This document shows positions 4,925-33,538 of a stretch of 52,529 nt of DNA, piece by piece (position 1 is the stretch's first letter; each line of letters starts with the position of its first letter). Below the pieces are notes generated by a model. It saw nothing but the letters and a program-made list of their open reading frames with translations. It ran no database searches and was not told where the DNA came from. The position numbers and the translations under genes are program-made. The stretch spans positions 1-52,529 of IMG/VR virus record IMGVR_UViG_3300028569_000046. One strand, 5' to 3'. Origin of the DNA: a virus.

Positions 4925-5127
4925 ATACAGAAATTAATTATGCATCTCTTGCTGGTGCCTACAAAGGCACTATGCACGGATTAATCTACGCCTTAGTGCA
5001 AACCAATATCGTTCACCCAAACAAATATGATGAGCTCAGGGCCTTTATTACAAAGGAAATCGAGCGCATCGAATCAACATACGGCAAAGCTTCAATTTCA
5101 ACTGGGGGTGAAAAGGTTTCGACATGA
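4921..5127 (+). CDS. hypothetical protein (68 aa) running into the tmRNA
   Basis: The start overlaps the preceding stop (ATGA). The product is helical (TKEIERIESTYG near the C-terminus). Its last eight codons, including the stop at 5125-5127, lie inside the 5' acceptor and D-like region of the tmRNA. Transcription from P2 would therefore give one RNA carrying this mRNA and the tmRNA precursor, and processing at the tmRNA 5' end would cut the coding sequence. Confidence 0.55.
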   Translation: MNTEINYASLAGAYKGTMHGLIYALVQTNIVHPNKYDELRAFITKEIERIESTYGKASISTGGEKVST

Positions 5128-5428
5128 TAAGAAACACACCTATTGCAACACACAGTCTGCTTGACTTTAAAAGCGAAAAACAAAAGGCGAAAATAACCTT
5201 GCATTAGCTGCGTAAGCTACGTCCACTTTTTGACTCCTCTAAAAGATGTGGGCGACGACAGAGGATAGCTTTTTAGGCAAATCTAAAATAGGTTGAGTAC
5301 ACCAAACTATACTCTGGGGCACAACGTAGGTGCATAGCCGGCAAGCATGGCGAAAAAAGCTTGATATTGTTGTAGATTATAGATTGTTTGTATCGTGGAC
5401 TCGGGTTCAACTCCCGACACCTCCACCA
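5104..5428 (+). ncRNA. ssrA: transfer-messenger RNA (tmRNA), one-piece
   Basis: The 325-nt region has the tmRNA ends. The 5' GGGGGTG (5104-5110) pairs with CACCTCC (5418-5424), followed by discriminator A and an encoded CCA (5426-5428). A GGTTTCGACA element near the 5' end matches the conserved D-like region. A T-arm is formed by TCGGG, the loop TTCAACT, and CCCGA. Inside, an open frame ends GAA AAT AAC CTT GCA TTA GCT GCG TAA, giving a tag that ends ENNLALAA, the usual ALAA degradation signal. The resume codon is not certain; GGC at 5186 would give GENNLALAA, and an in-frame TAA at 5168 limits any upstream start. CCTCT/AGAGG and other stems follow the tag. The molecule would charge with Ala and rescue stalled ribosomes with SmpB. 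Confidence 0.9.
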
Positions 5429-17577: not shown

Positions 17578-17902
17578 CTACGAACACGGATTGGATCGAA
17601 AAAAAGTAGATCTTTCACCATCAACACTTGGCGGTTTTATGGAAGAACCGGATCAAATTGATGAAATTGACTTGTGGAAAAAAGAATGGACAGGAATGCC
17701 CGAATATGAAGAAGGTGAATATGTCTATAAAAGTATTCGCGTTCATTTTAACAATGAAGAAGATTATCTTGAGTTTTGCAATCTTATTGGACAACCAAAT
17801 ATGACTCTTAAAACAAAGAGCATTTGGCATCCTGCACAAGTGCGCGGCAAAAATTCATTGCTGCGATGGATTGATGGGGAGCAAGAAGATCAACTACCGT
17901 AA
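17561..17902 (+). CDS. conserved phage protein (113 aa)
   Basis: The N-terminal half is acidic. The C-terminal part (VHFNNEEDYLEFCNLIGQP then LKTKSIWHP) resembles a conserved module in large phages whose members read EEDY...LIGQ...KSIWxP, seen next to DNA-modification and nucleotide genes. It directly precedes the TAGT glycosyltransferase with 4 nt between them, so the two probably act together. Confidence 0.6.
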   Translation: MRNAVDYEHGLDRKKVDLSPSTLGGFMEEPDQIDEIDLWKKEWTGMPEYEEGEYVYKSIRVHFNNEEDYLEFCNLIGQPNMTLKTKSIWHPAQVRGKNSLLRWIDGEQEDQLP

Positions 17903-17906
17903 AGTT

Positions 17907-18812
17907 ATGAACCCACAATATCCTGTCTATATTATTTCCAAAGGTCGTGCTGATAGTCGAGTGACAAGTAGGTCGCTTGAACATATGAAAGTGCCATACA
18001 GCATTGTCATTGAACCGCAGGAATATGAAGCATATGCTGCTGTAATTGATCCTAAGAAAATTTTGGTTCTTCCGTTTAGCAACCATGGACTAGGTTCTGG
18101 ACCTGCTCGCAACTGGTGTTGGGAACATGCCAAAAGCTTAGGCTTTAAGCGCCATTGGTTAATGGACGATAACATTAACCGGTTTTACAGATTGCACAAA
18201 GGTCGCAGAATTATAGCCGAAAGTGGAACCATGTTTAAAGTGATGGAAGATTTTGTTGATCGGTATGAAAATGTGCCATTGGCAGGATTACAATACACAT
18301 TCTTTTGTGTTGATGGTTTTAAATATCCTGCATTTGCTGTAAACCGAAGAATCTTTTCCTGCATGCTTATTGAAAATGATGCTCCGTTTCGATGGAGAGG
18401 CAAATACAATGAGGACGTTGATCTTTCACTTCAAGTGCTTAAAGCAGGGCAATGCACAATATTGTTTAATGCGTTTCTGCAAATGAAAATGGCAACGCAA
18501 ACAGTCAAAGGTGGTAATACCGAAGAACTATACGGTAAAGGAAAAGCGGAAAACGGCAAAGGAACATTGGATAAATCTCAGCTGCTTGTCAATATGCATC
18601 CCGAACATGCAAAAATTGTTTGGCGCTACGGACGTTGGCATCACCATGTTGACTATGGCACATTGGTACACAATAAGCTTATTAAAAGAACCGACATTGA
18701 AATTCCTACCGGTGTTAATACTTATGGCATGAAACTTGTTGAAAGACCGTCTTGGGTCGGTATTAATGATAAGCCTAAAAAGACAAAGGTGACAAAAAAG
18801 AAAAAGGCGTGA
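17907..18812 (+). CDS. TAGT-type DNA-base glycosyltransferase (GT-A fold)
   Basis: The 301-residue product starts MNPQYPVYIISKGRADSRVT (ATG 17907, 4 nt after the preceding stop). It continues IVIEPQEYEAYAAVID, LPFSNHGLGSGPARNWCWEH and HWLMDDNI, the signature series of the TET/JBP-associated glycosyltransferases. The DD in HWLMDDN is the metal/donor motif of the GT-A fold, and NEDVDLSLQ near 170 is the likely catalytic acidic stretch. Family members glycosylate oxidised or hydroxymethylated bases in phage DNA. No TET/JBP oxygenase or cytosine MTase is in this window, so the acceptor base is unknown. The Lys-rich tail may bind DNA. Confidence 0.8.
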   Translation: MNPQYPVYIISKGRADSRVTSRSLEHMKVPYSIVIEPQEYEAYAAVIDPKKILVLPFSNHGLGSGPARNWCWEHAKSLGFKRHWLMDDNINRFYRLHKGRRIIAESGTMFKVMEDFVDRYENVPLAGLQYTFFCVDGFKYPAFAVNRRIFSCMLIENDAPFRWRGKYNEDVDLSLQVLKAGQCTILFNAFLQMKMATQTVKGGNTEELYGKGKAENGKGTLDKSQLLVNMHPEHAKIVWRYGRWHHHVDYGTLVHNKLIKRTDIEIPTGVNTYGMKLVERPSWVGINDKPKKTKVTKKKKA

Positions 18813-26158: not shown

Positions 26159-28360
26159 TTATTGAGCTGTAAACATTCCGCTTCCGCTTGCCGTAATAAT
26201 AGGAGCATTTACAGAACCGTTGTTGTTTACGTTGCTTGACGTTGAACTGTTATTGGTAATATTACCACCAGTATTATTGTTAATAATAACCACAGGTGCC
26301 GCGGCAGTGGAACCAGCATTTCCCAATTGTGTTCCTACCGTTGGTGGTTTTGATTGGATTCCTTTTTGTAATAGTACAGCAGTTTCTTTTGATTGTTCTG
26401 ATTCCTTAAGGCCGTTAACAATTTGAATTAATGGTGCACCAGGTTTTATGGATTCACTTAAGCTTTTAAGTTTATCATATGGTATTTGATCCAGGACGGA
26501 TAATTTACCGTCAAGTTGCGACAGTGCATTTAATGCAACCACAAGTATATTAAGTCCTTCAGCGAAGGCTTTAATACCTGTAGGATCAAGTGCGTCCAGC
26601 CCTTTAAACTTATCAGCCAATGTTTCAAGAATATCAAGTTCAGAAGTAAAACCTGCCAATGTTTTCAGTCCGTTGGCCAGGTCGCGGACACCCATACCAA
26701 GAATACTTAAGTTATAACCGTGTTTGGCCAATTTAATAAGTTGTTCAATAGGACTGTCACTTCCAATACTTAGTATTTTACCAATTAAGTTTCCGATACC
26801 TGAAACAACTTGTGTTCCGGCAAACGCAACAAGAGCACCAGATAACGCCAATATACCTTTCGATGCGGATATTAAATCATCACCTTTTAGATCTTTTATT
26901 GATTTGTTAAATGTTTTTAAAAATTTTGATATTGTATCATCTTTACCTATGGCCAATTTTAAAGCAAAAATACCCGCGGAAAATGGTATTAAACCTAATG
27001 CAGCTTTTATTAAATTGAAGTAACTTAGTTTAGCAACACCTTCACCGAAGGATGTTAACGCGGCACCGCTTTTTTCGATTGTATCCCATTTTACGGTACT
27101 TAATAGCATCATACCTAATGCAAATGGAATGCTGGCAATTGCTCCAGCAATCATTGCAGGAATTGCTAGTGTTAAAATGCCGCCGCCGAGGCCAAGAGCT
27201 TTTAATGCTTCGTATATTCCATCAAAACCTTTCCAGTTTACAGCACCTAATATTGTCATACCTGCGGCAAATGGTATCAAAGATAAACCTACTAAAGCTA
27301 AAGCCCCCACGCCGGTTAAAATACCCGCCCCTACAGTTGCCATAATCACTCCAATTACAGCCAATGTACCTACCATTGCGAGTAATGCCAGGCCGGCTTT
27401 TCCAAGCGTAGGCCACTCAATATCTGCAAATAACCTTAAGCTTAACGCGGCCAGTCCTAATGAAGCACCAACAATGGCCAAAGCAGCAGCACCCTGTATT
27501 GCTTCTTTGGCAAATTTTGATAAAAGCGCCACCGAACTCATCAAAGCAACCAATGTTCCTGCGCCAGTTATAATTGCATCCGTTGGCATGTCTGCAAATA
27601 ATTTTAAAGATAGAGCGGCCAGTCCTAATGAAGCAGCAACTATTAGTAATGAAACCGAGGCTTTAAGCAATGTATTACCTATTTGTTTAAGTGCTTCGGC
27701 GAGTTTTCCCATAACTTCACCCATTTTTTCAAACATTTGATCGTTTCCAGCAAAAATACCTCCTATTTCCGACAATGAAGTTGTAATTTTCTTTAAAAAG
27801 ATTGTGCTGATGAAAACTGAAGTCCATTTTATTTTTGCAAAAGATGATAGTCCATCTCCTATAAGTTTTAATGGCGTACCAAATGTCTTTGCGAATCTTT
27901 TAAAAGGTATTAGTGCATTTATATTTTCGTTACTTCCTAAAACAGCTCCTATTGTTTTAAATCGGTCCGCAAATGTTTGTAATAAAAATGTTCCTTTTAA
28001 TGCTTTCATCCAAGGAATTTCAGCAAATCTTGTCGTTGCAACGCTGTAATCATCCACCAATTCAATTATTGCACTGGATTTATTAACATCATCAATATTC
28101 ATGGAATTTAATGAGTCCATGAATATTTGCATTCCCGCCACCGATTTTCTAATCAGCCCAGGAGCCAAACCAAAAGTCAAACCTTTTGCAATGTCCGTAA
28201 GTTTTGGTATTTTAAATCCAGCAAAAGGATCATTTTTATTTGCACCACTTGTGGCATTAAACTTGGCTGCAATTTTTTGCAAATAACCGCCATCTTTTGA
28301 AGATGCTAATTGCGCTGAAATTTGAGCTAATAAAGTAGTATCTGTTTTTGATGACGACAT
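26159..28360 (-). CDS. tail tape-measure protein (gp29-like)
   Basis: The 733-residue protein has many repeated hydrophobic segments (VSLLIVAASLGLAALSLKL and AAALAIVGASLGLAALSLRL are near copies), Gly/Ala-rich helices, and an Asn- and Ser-rich C-terminus with VVIINNNTGGNITNNSS. This pattern and its position behind the gp26/gp51-like chaperone pair identify a tape-measure protein. It is longer than T4 gp29 (590 aa), so the tail should be somewhat longer. The start ATG follows an AATAAATA box by 6 nt. Repeats make internal duplication likely. Confidence 0.8.
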   Translation of the reverse strand: MSSSKTDTTLLAQISAQLASSKDGGYLQKIAAKFNATSGANKNDPFAGFKIPKLTDIAKGLTFGLAPGLIRKSVAGMQIFMDSLNSMNIDDVNKSSAIIELVDDYSVATTRFAEIPWMKALKGTFLLQTFADRFKTIGAVLGSNENINALIPFKRFAKTFGTPLKLIGDGLSSFAKIKWTSVFISTIFLKKITTSLSEIGGIFAGNDQMFEKMGEVMGKLAEALKQIGNTLLKASVSLLIVAASLGLAALSLKLFADMPTDAIITGAGTLVALMSSVALLSKFAKEAIQGAAALAIVGASLGLAALSLRLFADIEWPTLGKAGLALLAMVGTLAVIGVIMATVGAGILTGVGALALVGLSLIPFAAGMTILGAVNWKGFDGIYEALKALGLGGGILTLAIPAMIAGAIASIPFALGMMLLSTVKWDTIEKSGAALTSFGEGVAKLSYFNLIKAALGLIPFSAGIFALKLAIGKDDTISKFLKTFNKSIKDLKGDDLISASKGILALSGALVAFAGTQVVSGIGNLIGKILSIGSDSPIEQLIKLAKHGYNLSILGMGVRDLANGLKTLAGFTSELDILETLADKFKGLDALDPTGIKAFAEGLNILVVALNALSQLDGKLSVLDQIPYDKLKSLSESIKPGAPLIQIVNGLKESEQSKETAVLLQKGIQSKPPTVGTQLGNAGSTAAAPVVIINNNTGGNITNNSSTSSNVNNNGSVNAPIITASGSGMFTAQ

Positions 28361-28365
28361 ATATA

Positions 28366-28548
28366 CTATTTATTATTTTTTTGCTTTAATTCTTCTTCCT
28401 TAATATAGTTTGATAATAAGCTGACATAAATTTCCCTCTCCCATGGCAACATGCCTTCAAGCTCGCTTAAACTGTATTTGTGATGTTGCATTAAAGCAAA
28501 ATTAGTTTGATAGTAATTTGCCAATGATTCATGCGAGAGGCTTATACG
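28366..28548 (-). CDS. 51: gp51-like hub assembly extension, made by -1 frameshift
   Basis: In the -1 frame relative to gene 26, 60 codons run from the slip site to TAG at 28366. The product SLANYYQTNFALMQHHKYSL then SELEGMLPWEREIYVSLL is the gp51-type sequence of T4-like phages. The conserved part begins before its first ATG, and no good start codon with a ribosome binding site exists (a TTG at about 28524 is the only one). It is therefore probably translated as a gp26-gp51 fusion. The gene ends 5 nt before the tape-measure start. Confidence 0.65.
   Translation of the reverse strand, partial: RISLSHESLANYYQTNFALMQHHKYSLSELEGMLPWEREIYVSLLSNYIKEEELKQKNNK
28367..28374 (-). promoter_or_regulatory. 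late-promoter-like AATAAATA box
   Basis: AATAAATA on the minus strand, 6 nt before the ATG of the tape-measure gene and within the last codons of the gp51-like frame. Confidence 0.4.
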
Positions 28549-29249
28549 AAAAAAGACTGAGTTCCAGAAATATTAATAGTGTTGTCGTGTGCGCAACTTT
28601 TACATTTAAAGCTTACATCTTTTTGAACCTTAGGTGTTGATTCAATAAAGCTTTCAATTTTGGACATTTGCGCACGTGTCAATGAATTGATAAATGTAGT
28701 TAATTCCGCTGGTGTTGATTTATCACCAGGATAAACAGTGTCTGCATCAAAAATGGATTCGATTGAAGCCATAACCACATTGTTGATAATTTCACTTTGC
28801 GGTTTTTTATCATCTGCAAGCAATGCCATATCCTTAACACGAATGTGACGCAAATTGATACCAACGGTATCCGTCAACATTACGGTTTTGGATGCCTTAG
28901 GATCAATTTTAACTTCAATTTCATCAATAACAATGCTGACAGGATTTGGTGTTTTACATTCTGAACATTCCAAATTTATCTCGGTAATTTCACCGATACT
29001 TTTAGAGCGAAGCTTTAAGAAAATATATTCAAGGTCATAACTTGTAATACTGTTAATATCAAGTTTTTCAAATGTACATGCACGAATAATTTCCTTCATT
29101 GCGGAAAACATTTGGATTGAATCATTTGATTCTTGTGCGATTAGTAGTATTTTTTCCTCCTTAACAAGAAATGGACGATATTCTACAATTTTACCTGTTG
29201 AAGGAATTGCGACGGTATATTTTGACGATTCTAGGATTGGTAATGGCAT
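28542..29249 (-). CDS. 26: baseplate hub/assembly protein gp26
   Basis: The 235-residue protein matches gp26 of T4-like phages. It has PFLVKEEKILLIAQES at the N-terminus, LTRAQMSKIESFIESTPKV near residue 190, and two CxxC pairs (CSEC at 95-98, CKSC at 216-219) forming a zinc ribbon. T4 gp26 is required for hub assembly. The gene ends in TCT TTT TTC GTA TAA, a perfect -1 slip site right before the stop, and the gp51-like frame continues beyond. It follows the tail-tube-like gene by 47 nt. Confidence 0.85.
   Translation of the reverse strand: MPLPILESSKYTVAIPSTGKIVEYRPFLVKEEKILLIAQESNDSIQMFSAMKEIIRACTFEKLDINSITSYDLEYIFLKLRSKSIGEITEINLECSECKTPNPVSIVIDEIEVKIDPKASKTVMLTDTVGINLRHIRVKDMALLADDKKPQSEIINNVVMASIESIFDADTVYPGDKSTPAELTTFINSLTRAQMSKIESFIESTPKVQKDVSFKCKSCAHDNTINISGTQSFFV
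28548..28554 (-). promoter_or_regulatory. slippery heptamer T TTT TTC
   Basis: On the minus strand T(28554) TTT TTC(28548) is in the X XXY YYZ register of gene 26, two codons before its stop. A -1 slip joins gp26 to the gp51-like frame. Confidence 0.7.
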
Positions 29250-29296: not shown

Positions 29297-29887
29297 TTAA
29301 GCAAACGCTGACGGTAGATTTGTAGGGTTGTTTGTGGCCGGTGTGTCTGAAGGAACATTAATATCACCACGGTAACTAATTATTGGCACCCAAATATTAT
29401 ATGTAAAATCTACGGTTAATTTTTGCGTGGCGTTGGTTTGTGAATTATCCAATTCAACAGCACTCACAGATACTGGATATGCATCTATTAATTTGACTCC
29501 ATACACATCCTGATCCTTTTCATCAAGTTGAAAAATTTCTATTGTTGTTTTAAATGTAGAATCATAAGATATAAAATAATCAGGATCAACAATTCTATTT
29601 AACCATTGATCAAAAATTTTCTTAACATAATAATCATTTGTCAGATGAAAAACAACACTAACATCTTCATTTGCAAAACCTGTAGGTATTTTTATAGGAT
29701 TGCGATATGAACTAAATTCAAATGATTGAATTGTTTTGCTTGGAAATGACGCACTTTCACATAACAATGAAAGTGCACGCCCATTATCAGGAAATGCTGT
29801 TTCTGCTATTTCTATTCTAAAACGATTCTTTTTGGCAACTCCACCCTTTTGCTTAATTAATGCTACAAACTGTGCTATATTATCCAT
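29297..29887 (-). CDS. 54: tail-tube family protein, probably baseplate tube initiator gp54
   Basis: The 196-residue protein (KNRFRIEIAETAFPDNGRAL; CESASFPSKTIQSFEF; YRNPIKIPTGFANEDVSVVF; FDQWLNRIVDP) has the tube fold shared by gp19 and gp54. Position in the hub cluster next to genes 26, 4 and 48 favours gp54, which starts tube growth. gp19 usually lies next to the sheath gene, which is not in this window. Sequence alone does not separate them. A late box precedes it. Confidence 0.75.
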   Translation of the reverse strand: MDNIAQFVALIKQKGGVAKKNRFRIEIAETAFPDNGRALSLLCESASFPSKTIQSFEFSSYRNPIKIPTGFANEDVSVVFHLTNDYYVKKIFDQWLNRIVDPDYFISYDSTFKTTIEIFQLDEKDQDVYGVKLIDAYPVSVSAVELDNSQTNATQKLTVDFTYNIWVPIISYRGDINVPSDTPATNNPTNLPSAFA

Positions 29888-31486: not shown

Positions 31487-33538
31487 ATGTCTGTAAATTA
31501 TTTTAATAAATTCCCAAAAGTATTATTTGATGTTAATAATGATGGTAACTTTTCCATTCTTACCGATATTACAAAAACCGTTGACATTAATACGTTTGAT
31601 AATGATAGTGTAACATATTATACATTTCAAGAAATTGGCGACGGCGAAAGACCTGATAGTCTTTCTTATCGTCTTTATGGTACACCGCAATACTATTGGA
31701 CATTTTTTGTAATAAATGATAGTCTTAAAGCAGGGTTAAGCAATGCATGGCCGTTGAACAGTCACGCGTTTGAAAATATGATGGCCAATGAGTATGATGT
31801 TTATAGTGCAATTACATTTTATCCTATATTACACGCACCTGGTACATTGGATTCAAATGGATTTTTATCATCGGATAATGCTGTAAATAAGCGATCAGAT
31901 TTTTCCTTTGTTCCATTGGTACCAATTAATAATTTGTTAACATCTGTGGATGATCAAGATCAATATTTGCCATATTTGCGTTTGGTTCCCGCCACAGGTG
32001 ATGCACCACCATCCGCAAAAATATTAAAATATGACAGTGCCACGTGCCAACTTGTTGTTTATGATATTCGTGATAATGTTAAAACAAGTGTGCATATTAC
32101 CAACGGCGGCTCAGGCTATGCGCCTACACCGCCAGTGTCATTTGGTGCCGCACCAACTGGCGGTACCACCGCAACAGGTATCGCGGTTGTAGGATCTGAC
32201 AGAAAGGTTTCATCGGTGTTTGTAACAAATCCAGGATCAGGGTATGTCACACCTCCGTCTGTTACAGTTTCATCCGAATACGCAAGCTTAAATATATTTA
32301 GAACAAAAAACATAGGGTCGTTTTTTAGCCCACTGATAGTACCGGATACTGATAATCCGCCAACGGCCATCCTTCGATCGCGCATACCAGGCGCCGCAGG
32401 AAACAATATTAGAATTAAATTTAATGGATTTTCTGGTGGGCTGCATCTCGCCCCATTGCCATTGGCGAGTGTTACATCGGTTGTTGTTTCGGGAACAGAC
32501 ATTACAGTAAATTATTCACCAACTCAAAGTGCTTTAACTCCAGCTGTGGTAAAGGCCGCGTTGGAGGCCAACACTCAAGCAAATACTTTGGTCGAACTGA
32601 TTATTCAACCTATTAATTCTGGGCAATTTGGAACTCCCGCATCTTTCTGGCCAAATGTTTTTACTTCTTTTTCGGGTGAATTTACCACCTGTAATGTGGC
32701 GATTGATTCGCAAGGAAGTGTAATAAGTGTTAATGTTGTAACAAATTCCGATACATTATATTTGCCAGCGCCGACTGTAACATTTGGTTCAGCACCATCA
32801 GGTGGTACTACCGCAACAGGTATTGCAGTAGTAGACTCGGGAGGAAGTGTAACGTCAGTTGTTATAACAAATCCTGGATCCGGATACGTCACAAACCCTA
32901 CTGTCACATTTGGAGCAGCACCGGCAGGTGGTATTACAGCAACTGGAACGTGTGATGTTTCCAAACCTGTAATCTCCAGAGAATCGCTATTAAACGCCGA
33001 AAGCTTTAAACTGTTATGGATTAATCCATACAATCAAATTACGCAAACCGATGCATTTAATGCCAATGAAGCTCTTAAAGCACGATTTGTCACAGCCGCT
33101 TTGACATATTTTGAACCTATTGATAGATATTATTATCCCGGCCGAGTTTCAGACCCTTCGAATAATACGGATCCGACTTACGACAATAGTACTATAGGGC
33201 GGGAAAGATATATTTTTGATAAAAACTATTTAAAGGTTCCCAATTCCAATTCAAAAGTTTATTCATGGGAACTTTATAGAAATGCAACGGCTCAATATAC
33301 ATCAACTCAAACAGTAACTGTTGACGGTGAAACTGTAACAACAACAATTCCCGTTTCGGTGTATGATGTATTGTATCCGCGCAATGATACGCCTGATACG
33401 CCCCCACCACCAATTGGTGTTTTAAGTTTTTATGAAAAAGAAGAAAATGCCAATAGTGATAAAAGAAACATTAAAGTAATAAGACCTGAGGTTATTAATA
33501 GATTTTCAAAAACTTATTTTGATTTGTTAAATACATAA
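31487..33538 (+). CDS. 53: baseplate wedge gp53, enlarged by repeated beta modules
   Basis: Residues 1-105 (YFNKFPKVLFDVNN; TYYTFQEIGDGERPDSLSYR; LYGTPQYYWTFFVINDSL) and the C-terminal 180 residues (KLLWINPYNQI; FDKNYLKVPNSNSKVYSWEL) match gp53. T4 gp53 has only 196 aa. Here about 400 residues are inserted. They contain three GSGY modules (ITNGGSGYAPTPPVSFGAAP; VTNPGSGYVTPPSVTV; ITNPGSGYVTNPTVTFGAAP) and a GAAGNNIRIKFNGFSGG domain. These may decorate the baseplate or bind the host. Confidence 0.8.
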   Translation: MSVNYFNKFPKVLFDVNNDGNFSILTDITKTVDINTFDNDSVTYYTFQEIGDGERPDSLSYRLYGTPQYYWTFFVINDSLKAGLSNAWPLNSHAFENMMANEYDVYSAITFYPILHAPGTLDSNGFLSSDNAVNKRSDFSFVPLVPINNLLTSVDDQDQYLPYLRLVPATGDAPPSAKILKYDSATCQLVVYDIRDNVKTSVHITNGGSGYAPTPPVSFGAAPTGGTTATGIAVVGSDRKVSSVFVTNPGSGYVTPPSVTVSSEYASLNIFRTKNIGSFFSPLIVPDTDNPPTAILRSRIPGAAGNNIRIKFNGFSGGLHLAPLPLASVTSVVVSGTDITVNYSPTQSALTPAVVKAALEANTQANTLVELIIQPINSGQFGTPASFWPNVFTSFSGEFTTCNVAIDSQGSVISVNVVTNSDTLYLPAPTVTFGSAPSGGTTATGIAVVDSGGSVTSVVITNPGSGYVTNPTVTFGAAPAGGITATGTCDVSKPVISRESLLNAESFKLLWINPYNQITQTDAFNANEALKARFVTAALTYFEPIDRYYYPGRVSDPSNNTDPTYDNSTIGRERYIFDKNYLKVPNSNSKVYSWELYRNATAQYTSTQTVTVDGETVTTTIPVSVYDVLYPRNDTPDTPPPPIGVLSFYEKEENANSDKRNIKVIRPEVINRFSKTYFDLLNT

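Follow-up and report, generated by a model that had tools for sequence, protein, structure and literature searches.

A putative programmed -1 frameshift linking gp26 to a gp51 domain as a tail assembly chaperone pair in a T4-like phage

In the present study, genes 26 and 51 of a T4-like phage appear to be one recoded gene, from which a programmed -1 frameshift would yield gp26 and the fused protein gp26-51 as a tail assembly chaperone pair, a reading to which we give a probability of about 0.92. The analysis concerns the window, that is, the whole stretch of 52,529 nucleotides of IMG/VR record IMGVR_UViG_3300028569_000046, which is clearly T4-like. The arrangement of the reading frames, its conservation, the lack of a credible start codon for the gp51 domain and the gene order around the junction are read directly from the DNA. 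The occurrence and the efficiency of the frameshift are what we infer from these features, and a chaperone function is probable from the position of the genes, the pattern of their products and the published assignment. The features concerned, all on the minus strand, are as follows.

28542-29249, minus strand: gp26, the putative short tail assembly chaperone (TAC-N), 235 aa, counting the two Phe residues of the slip; the range includes the stop codon
28548-28554, minus strand: slippery heptamer T_TTT_TTC, with TTT in the P site and TTC in the A site and predicted tandem -1 re-pairing on TTT TTT
28542-28544, minus strand: zero-frame stop TAA of gp26, with one sense codon (GTA) between heptamer and stop
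28366-28548, minus strand: -1 frame extension, the gp51 domain or putative TAC-C, 60 residues plus stop
28573-28575, minus strand: last -1 frame stop (TAA) before the heptamer, 18 nt upstream, which bounds the shift region
26159-28360, minus strand: tape-measure-like protein, 733 aa, matching phrog_4372 (tail length tape measure, E=1.5e-11)
29297-29887, minus strand: tail tube protein upstream of gp26, matching phrog_3629 (tail tube, E=7.2e-37)

Gene 26 ends in CAG TCT TTT TTC GTA TAA, and the heptamer (28554-28548) lies in the gp26 frame, as the initial annotation had noticed when proposing a -1 slip at this site. The coding part of the -1 frame runs from 28548 to 28369 and is closed by a stop at 28368-28366, so that the predicted junction peptide would read SFF followed by RISLSHESLANYYQTNFALMQHHKYSLSELEGMLPWEREIYVSLLSNYIKEEELKQKNNK, the start of the 60-residue extension. 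Such a site is rare in the window, where an in-frame T_TTT_TTN was found only 8 times in approximately 15,000 codons of ORFs that start with ATG and are 100 aa or longer, counted on both strands and with spurious ORFs included.

The junction was compared with 80 IMG/VR relatives, giving 81 junctions together with the window (best-segment identity 31-58%). The loci were picked by peptide patterns and similarity to the fused protein, and the invariance of the motif NFALMQHH is therefore partly a product of selection; frame relation and heptamer were not selection criteria. In all 81 junctions the gp51 domain is encoded in the -1 frame with respect to gp26, and never in frame 0 or +1. The sequence T_TTT_TTN in the gp26 frame is present in 80 of these (79 of the 80 relatives and the window), the single exception being locus L036, where T_GTT_TTC replaces T_TTT_TTC. 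Removal of junctions at least 85% identical left a non-redundant set of 53, to which all fractions of 53 below refer and from which L036, without the run of six Ts, was left out. The six Ts are invariant in this set, the seventh base of the heptamer is C, T or A, and T_TTT_TTG was seen in two rhizobial phages. The codon preceding the slip varies (AGT, AAT, GAT, TCT, GCT, GGT, TTT) and ends in T in every case, which, together with the variable last base, fits the rules for slippery sites. A zero-frame stop follows 0-1 codons past the heptamer in 43/53, and, as background, T_TTT_TTY accounts for only 15 of the 255 remaining Phe-Phe pairs (5.9%) encoded by long ORFs at these loci. Every aligned relative conserves the extension (55-79% identical to that of the window), the nearest relative found being 57% identical to the phage of the window; a tape-measure-size ORF follows the junction in most loci with enough flanking sequence. 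Beyond the IMG/VR set, T_TTT_TTN is present at the junction in 11 of the 13 non-T-even isolates checked, namely Melnitz-1, two cyanophages, two Rhizobium/Agrobacterium phages, phiM9, two Vibrio phages, Aeromonas AsFcp_4, Stenotrophomonas BUCT608 and Cronobacter LPCS28. Thus, the alignment of other T4-like phages suggested at the outset agrees with the proposed shift site.

The identity of the two parts is supported by profile searches. The fused protein matches PF12322 (T4_baseplate) with 180 bits (curated cut-off 24.5; E=7.1e-53) over protein residues 10-235 and profile positions 3-219 of 219, a full-domain match. Separately, gp26 matches phrog_150 (baseplate hub, E=4.8e-70), and the extension alone, over residues 2-57 of a 58-aa query, matches phrog_634 (baseplate hub assembly catalyst, i.e. 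gp51) at E=2e-27, confirming the earlier impression that the 60 residues resemble gp51. An AlphaFold2 model of gp26 (pLDDT 88.9) found mostly gp26-type baseplate hub proteins among its best named viral matches in BFVD, with E down to 6e-21. The same model had no significant match in the PDB, the HK97 chaperone 2ob9 appearing at E=5.5 (probability 0.10, TM 0.42 of the target), and no solved relatives of gp26 were found by sequence. The tape-measure-like ORF begins 5 nt past the end of the -1 frame, in agreement with the statement that the pair directly precedes the tape-measure gene, and its 733-aa product is presumed to be the client of the chaperones. Upstream of gp26 lie the tail tube protein and a gp4-type head-closure protein. 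Elsewhere in the window, a baseplate-wedge-type protein (31487-33538, plus strand) is enlarged to 683 aa and contains repeats resembling GSGYVTPPSVTF, with matches to phrog_460 and to further virion proteins, and an ORF at 17871-18812 (plus strand) matches beta-glucosyl-HMC-alpha-glucosyltransferase (phrog_842, E=2.2e-48), hinting that the phage DNA may contain modified cytosines.

The place of the shift and the lack of a separate start for the gp51 domain are given by the frames themselves. In 22/53 junctions a stop closes the -1 frame no more than 15 nt before the heptamer, and therefore the shift must occur at or very near the heptamer; in seven of the 53 the open -1 frame starts exactly there. 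Conservation of the extension begins with an LSH motif at residue 4, about three residues past the slip and ahead of any credible start codon. In the window, the first ATG of the -1 frame is 57 nt past the slip, within the conserved part, and the one TTG, at +24, is also inside it; the first ATG lies at least 51 nt downstream in 39/53 junctions. The Shine-Dalgarno (SD) pairing of putative gp51 starts is -1.08 kcal/mol, compared with -2.21 for random 20-mers and -5.92 for gp26 starts. Late ATG codons, conservation from residue 4 and weak SD pairing at the candidate starts together make a stand-alone gp51 not credible in the lineage of the window, and a separate start was rejected for the window because its -1 frame has no credible start codon. 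The observation that the conserved part of gp51 starts upstream of any ATG, made from the window alone, is thereby borne out.

Despite these results, gp51 might be translated on its own as a short protein, either through re-initiation past the stop of gp26 or from an internal start other than ATG, without any fusion. GenBank records mostly annotate gp51 as a short gene of its own, and in several lineages (Vibrio phages VP03, F86 and K361, Rhizobium phage N34, Agrobacterium phage Atu_ph04, Stenotrophomonas phage BUCT608 and Sinorhizobium phage phiM9) a -1 frame ATG overlaps the gp26 stop as TAATG or TGATG, as in coupled re-initiation. However, the TAATG overlap occurs in only 2/53 junctions, the ATG and TTG of the window fall inside a domain whose conservation reaches the slip, re-initiation leaves the invariant T6 unexplained, and the gp51 of T4 is naturally joined to a gp26-like N-terminus; we therefore regard this explanation as quite improbable. 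Re-initiation and frameshifting may also coexist. An ATG overlaps the gp26 stop in 6 of the 11 isolates that keep the heptamer (L084, L085, L086, L089, L090 and L097, with TGATG or TAATG), and in these six a free C-domain might also arise by coupled re-initiation, giving possibly three products, short, long and free C-domain, from the same junction. In Vibrio phage K361 (L092, 4530-4610), the gp26-51 junction has the TAATG stop-start overlap and no T6 heptamer, and a switch from frameshifting to coupled re-initiation is possible. In Serratia phage KNP4 (L095, Ackermannviridae), a homologous pair in the -1 relation carries G_GTT_TTC, a site deduced from the two reading frames and which we take to be the T7 gene 10 slip sequence.

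The frame could also be changed by the polymerase rather than by the ribosome, through transcriptional slippage on the T run. Runs of 7-9 Ts are indeed present in 24/53 junctions, but the other 29, the window included, have only six Ts, usually not enough for the polymerase to slip efficiently; moreover, the run starts in the phase of the heptamer and -1 is the sole frame relation seen, so that this explanation deserves very little credence. Since homopolymers are prone to error, a sequencing or assembly indel in the T run of an ordinary in-frame fusion gene was also considered. That reading is already contradicted, since the -1 arrangement is repeated in 80 other contigs and in deposited isolate genomes of several families and no in-frame version was seen at the gp26-51 junction, and its probability is negligible.

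Stimulatory elements around the programmed -1 frameshift were sought on both sides of the heptamer. Folding of the downstream RNA, recommended as a check at the outset, gave a negative answer: among relatives there were 2 consensus pairs and no covariation, the window had a non-significant z=-0.25, and a stem-loop or pseudoknot stimulator was rejected on these grounds. The group mean folding z of -1.17 for nt 12-72 fell to about -0.6, against a background of about -0.3, under more cautious normalisation. Upstream, the relatives have an SD-like purine run (e.g. GAGGGT, AAAGGA) about 10-15 nt before the heptamer, with a pairing of -5.64 compared with -4.76 (sd 0.18) under a synonymous null, and none of 200 simulations was as strong. 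The window has TCTGGA (-3.3) at the corresponding site and no strong SD-like element, and the same holds for its nearest relatives, L002, L003 and L016, which also show little SD at their gene starts. Gene starts in the window are A/T-rich and show hardly any SD pairing (average -1.36 kcal/mol for 33 ORF starts), in contrast to those of most relatives, a pattern that suggests a host not reliant on SD sites, possibly one of the Bacteroidota. It is conceivable, although we hold it only tentatively, that in this lineage an ancestral SD-like stimulator has decayed and that the shift runs on the bare heptamer and adjacent stop, or on an undescribed host-specific stimulator. The idea of SD loss rests on few loci, because overall the strength of SD at the slip does not correlate significantly with the use of SD at gene starts (Spearman 0.22, p=0.12). 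The window also encodes a tmRNA (5104-5428, plus strand; Rfam RF00023, 97.5 bits, full length), which is unusual for a phage and is a clue to the host group. Its tag peptide, GENNLALAA, presumably resembles Bacteroidota tags and would then be in keeping with a host indifferent to SD sites.

Herein, we propose that most ribosomes would stop at the gp26 TAA and release the short chaperone TAC-N of 235 aa, and that a minority would re-pair one base back on T_TTT_TTC, with the P-site tRNA-Phe on UUU and the A-site tRNA-Phe moving from UUC to UUU, to give the long gp26-51 product, TAC-NC, of about 294 aa. If the pair works like lambda G/GT, the tape-measure protein, whose gene comes next, would be coated by many copies of the short form and few of the long one, the C-domain would recruit tail-tube subunits, and both chaperones would depart before completion of the virion.

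The T4 group seems to have reached the same pair by another route. T4 gp26 and gp51 both match PF12322 (8.8e-64 and 3.9e-52). Over the 282 positions of phrog_150, gp26 covers 14-235, ending where the slip would be, and gp51 covers 13-280 including the C-domain; a full-length gp51 bearing the C-domain was also found in Aeromonas phage Aes012 and Klebsiella phage Shinkou. Judging from these alignments, T4 gp51 corresponds to the entire gp26-51 fusion, of which it is a full-length paralogue encoded in a single frame. This coverage, short for gp26 and long for gp51, indicates that the T4 group encodes the two forms as two genes and that others frameshift. The initial annotation had taken a separate gp51 with its own start in relatives as counting against the shift; T4 does have such a gene, yet as a paralogue of the fusion it favours the short/long reading. 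These results support the view that gp26 and gp51, the classic hub catalysts of T4, are a duplicated pair of tape-measure chaperones, one short and one long, and the contrast between recoding and gene duplication is a natural one that can be tested in laboratory phages. They also suggest that gp51 is routinely mis-annotated as a tiny stand-alone gene in the very common marine and freshwater T4-like phages. In cyanophages, for example, gp51 was described as about 20% of normal length and lacking the first approximately 200 residues, and a frameshift was not mentioned (Sullivan et al. 2010, PMC3037559).

Among known systems, phage P2 E / E+E' and T7 gene 10A/10B use -1 frameshifts on T-rich sites; the P2 proteins belong to a different sequence family, and T7 gene 10 is a capsid gene. 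The abstract of Vladimirov, Gautam and Davidson reportedly names T4 genes 26 and 51 and describes frameshifting as conserved in several T4-like groups. T4 itself shares PF12322 in gp26 and gp51 with the window, gp51 carrying the C-domain in frame, and differs in having two genes on opposite strands and no heptamer, gene 26 ending in GAG TTC TTT GAG TTA CTA TAA. The likeness to lambda G/GT would lie in a short product and a -1 extended long product of one gene, acting on the tape-measure protein; in lambda, G and GT are both absent from the mature virion. The difference is a tRNA-Lys slip in lambda (PMC5009743) as opposed to T_TTT_TTC here. Comparison with solved tail chaperones gave no sequence match and no significant fold match. 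Several features of a G/GT-type pair are present in the window, namely an in-frame heptamer at the end of the short gene, an open overlapping -1 frame, conservation in relatives and a position upstream of the tape-measure gene; the analogy drawn by the initial annotation holds, with a chaperone function likely. An earlier review held G/T frameshifting to be widely conserved except in T4 (PMC5009743). According to the passages citing Vladimirov et al. 2022, poly-T slippery sequences are known in T4-like TAC-N genes (phage Adele paper, PMC12846349), and some members of the T4-like group have, in place of frameshifting, a short chaperone gene and a second, long fused one (PRFect paper, PMC10885494). 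The 2022 study itself reportedly assigns the T4-like tail assembly chaperone pair to gp26 (TAC-N) and gp51 or gp26-51 (TAC-NC), the same genes as here (Vladimirov, Gautam and Davidson, Virology 566:9-15, 2022). On that account, the frameshifted gp26-51 is correct but not new in kind, having been described for T4-like phages in 2022, and the phage of the window is a distant further member of these chaperone pairs, with weak SD use.
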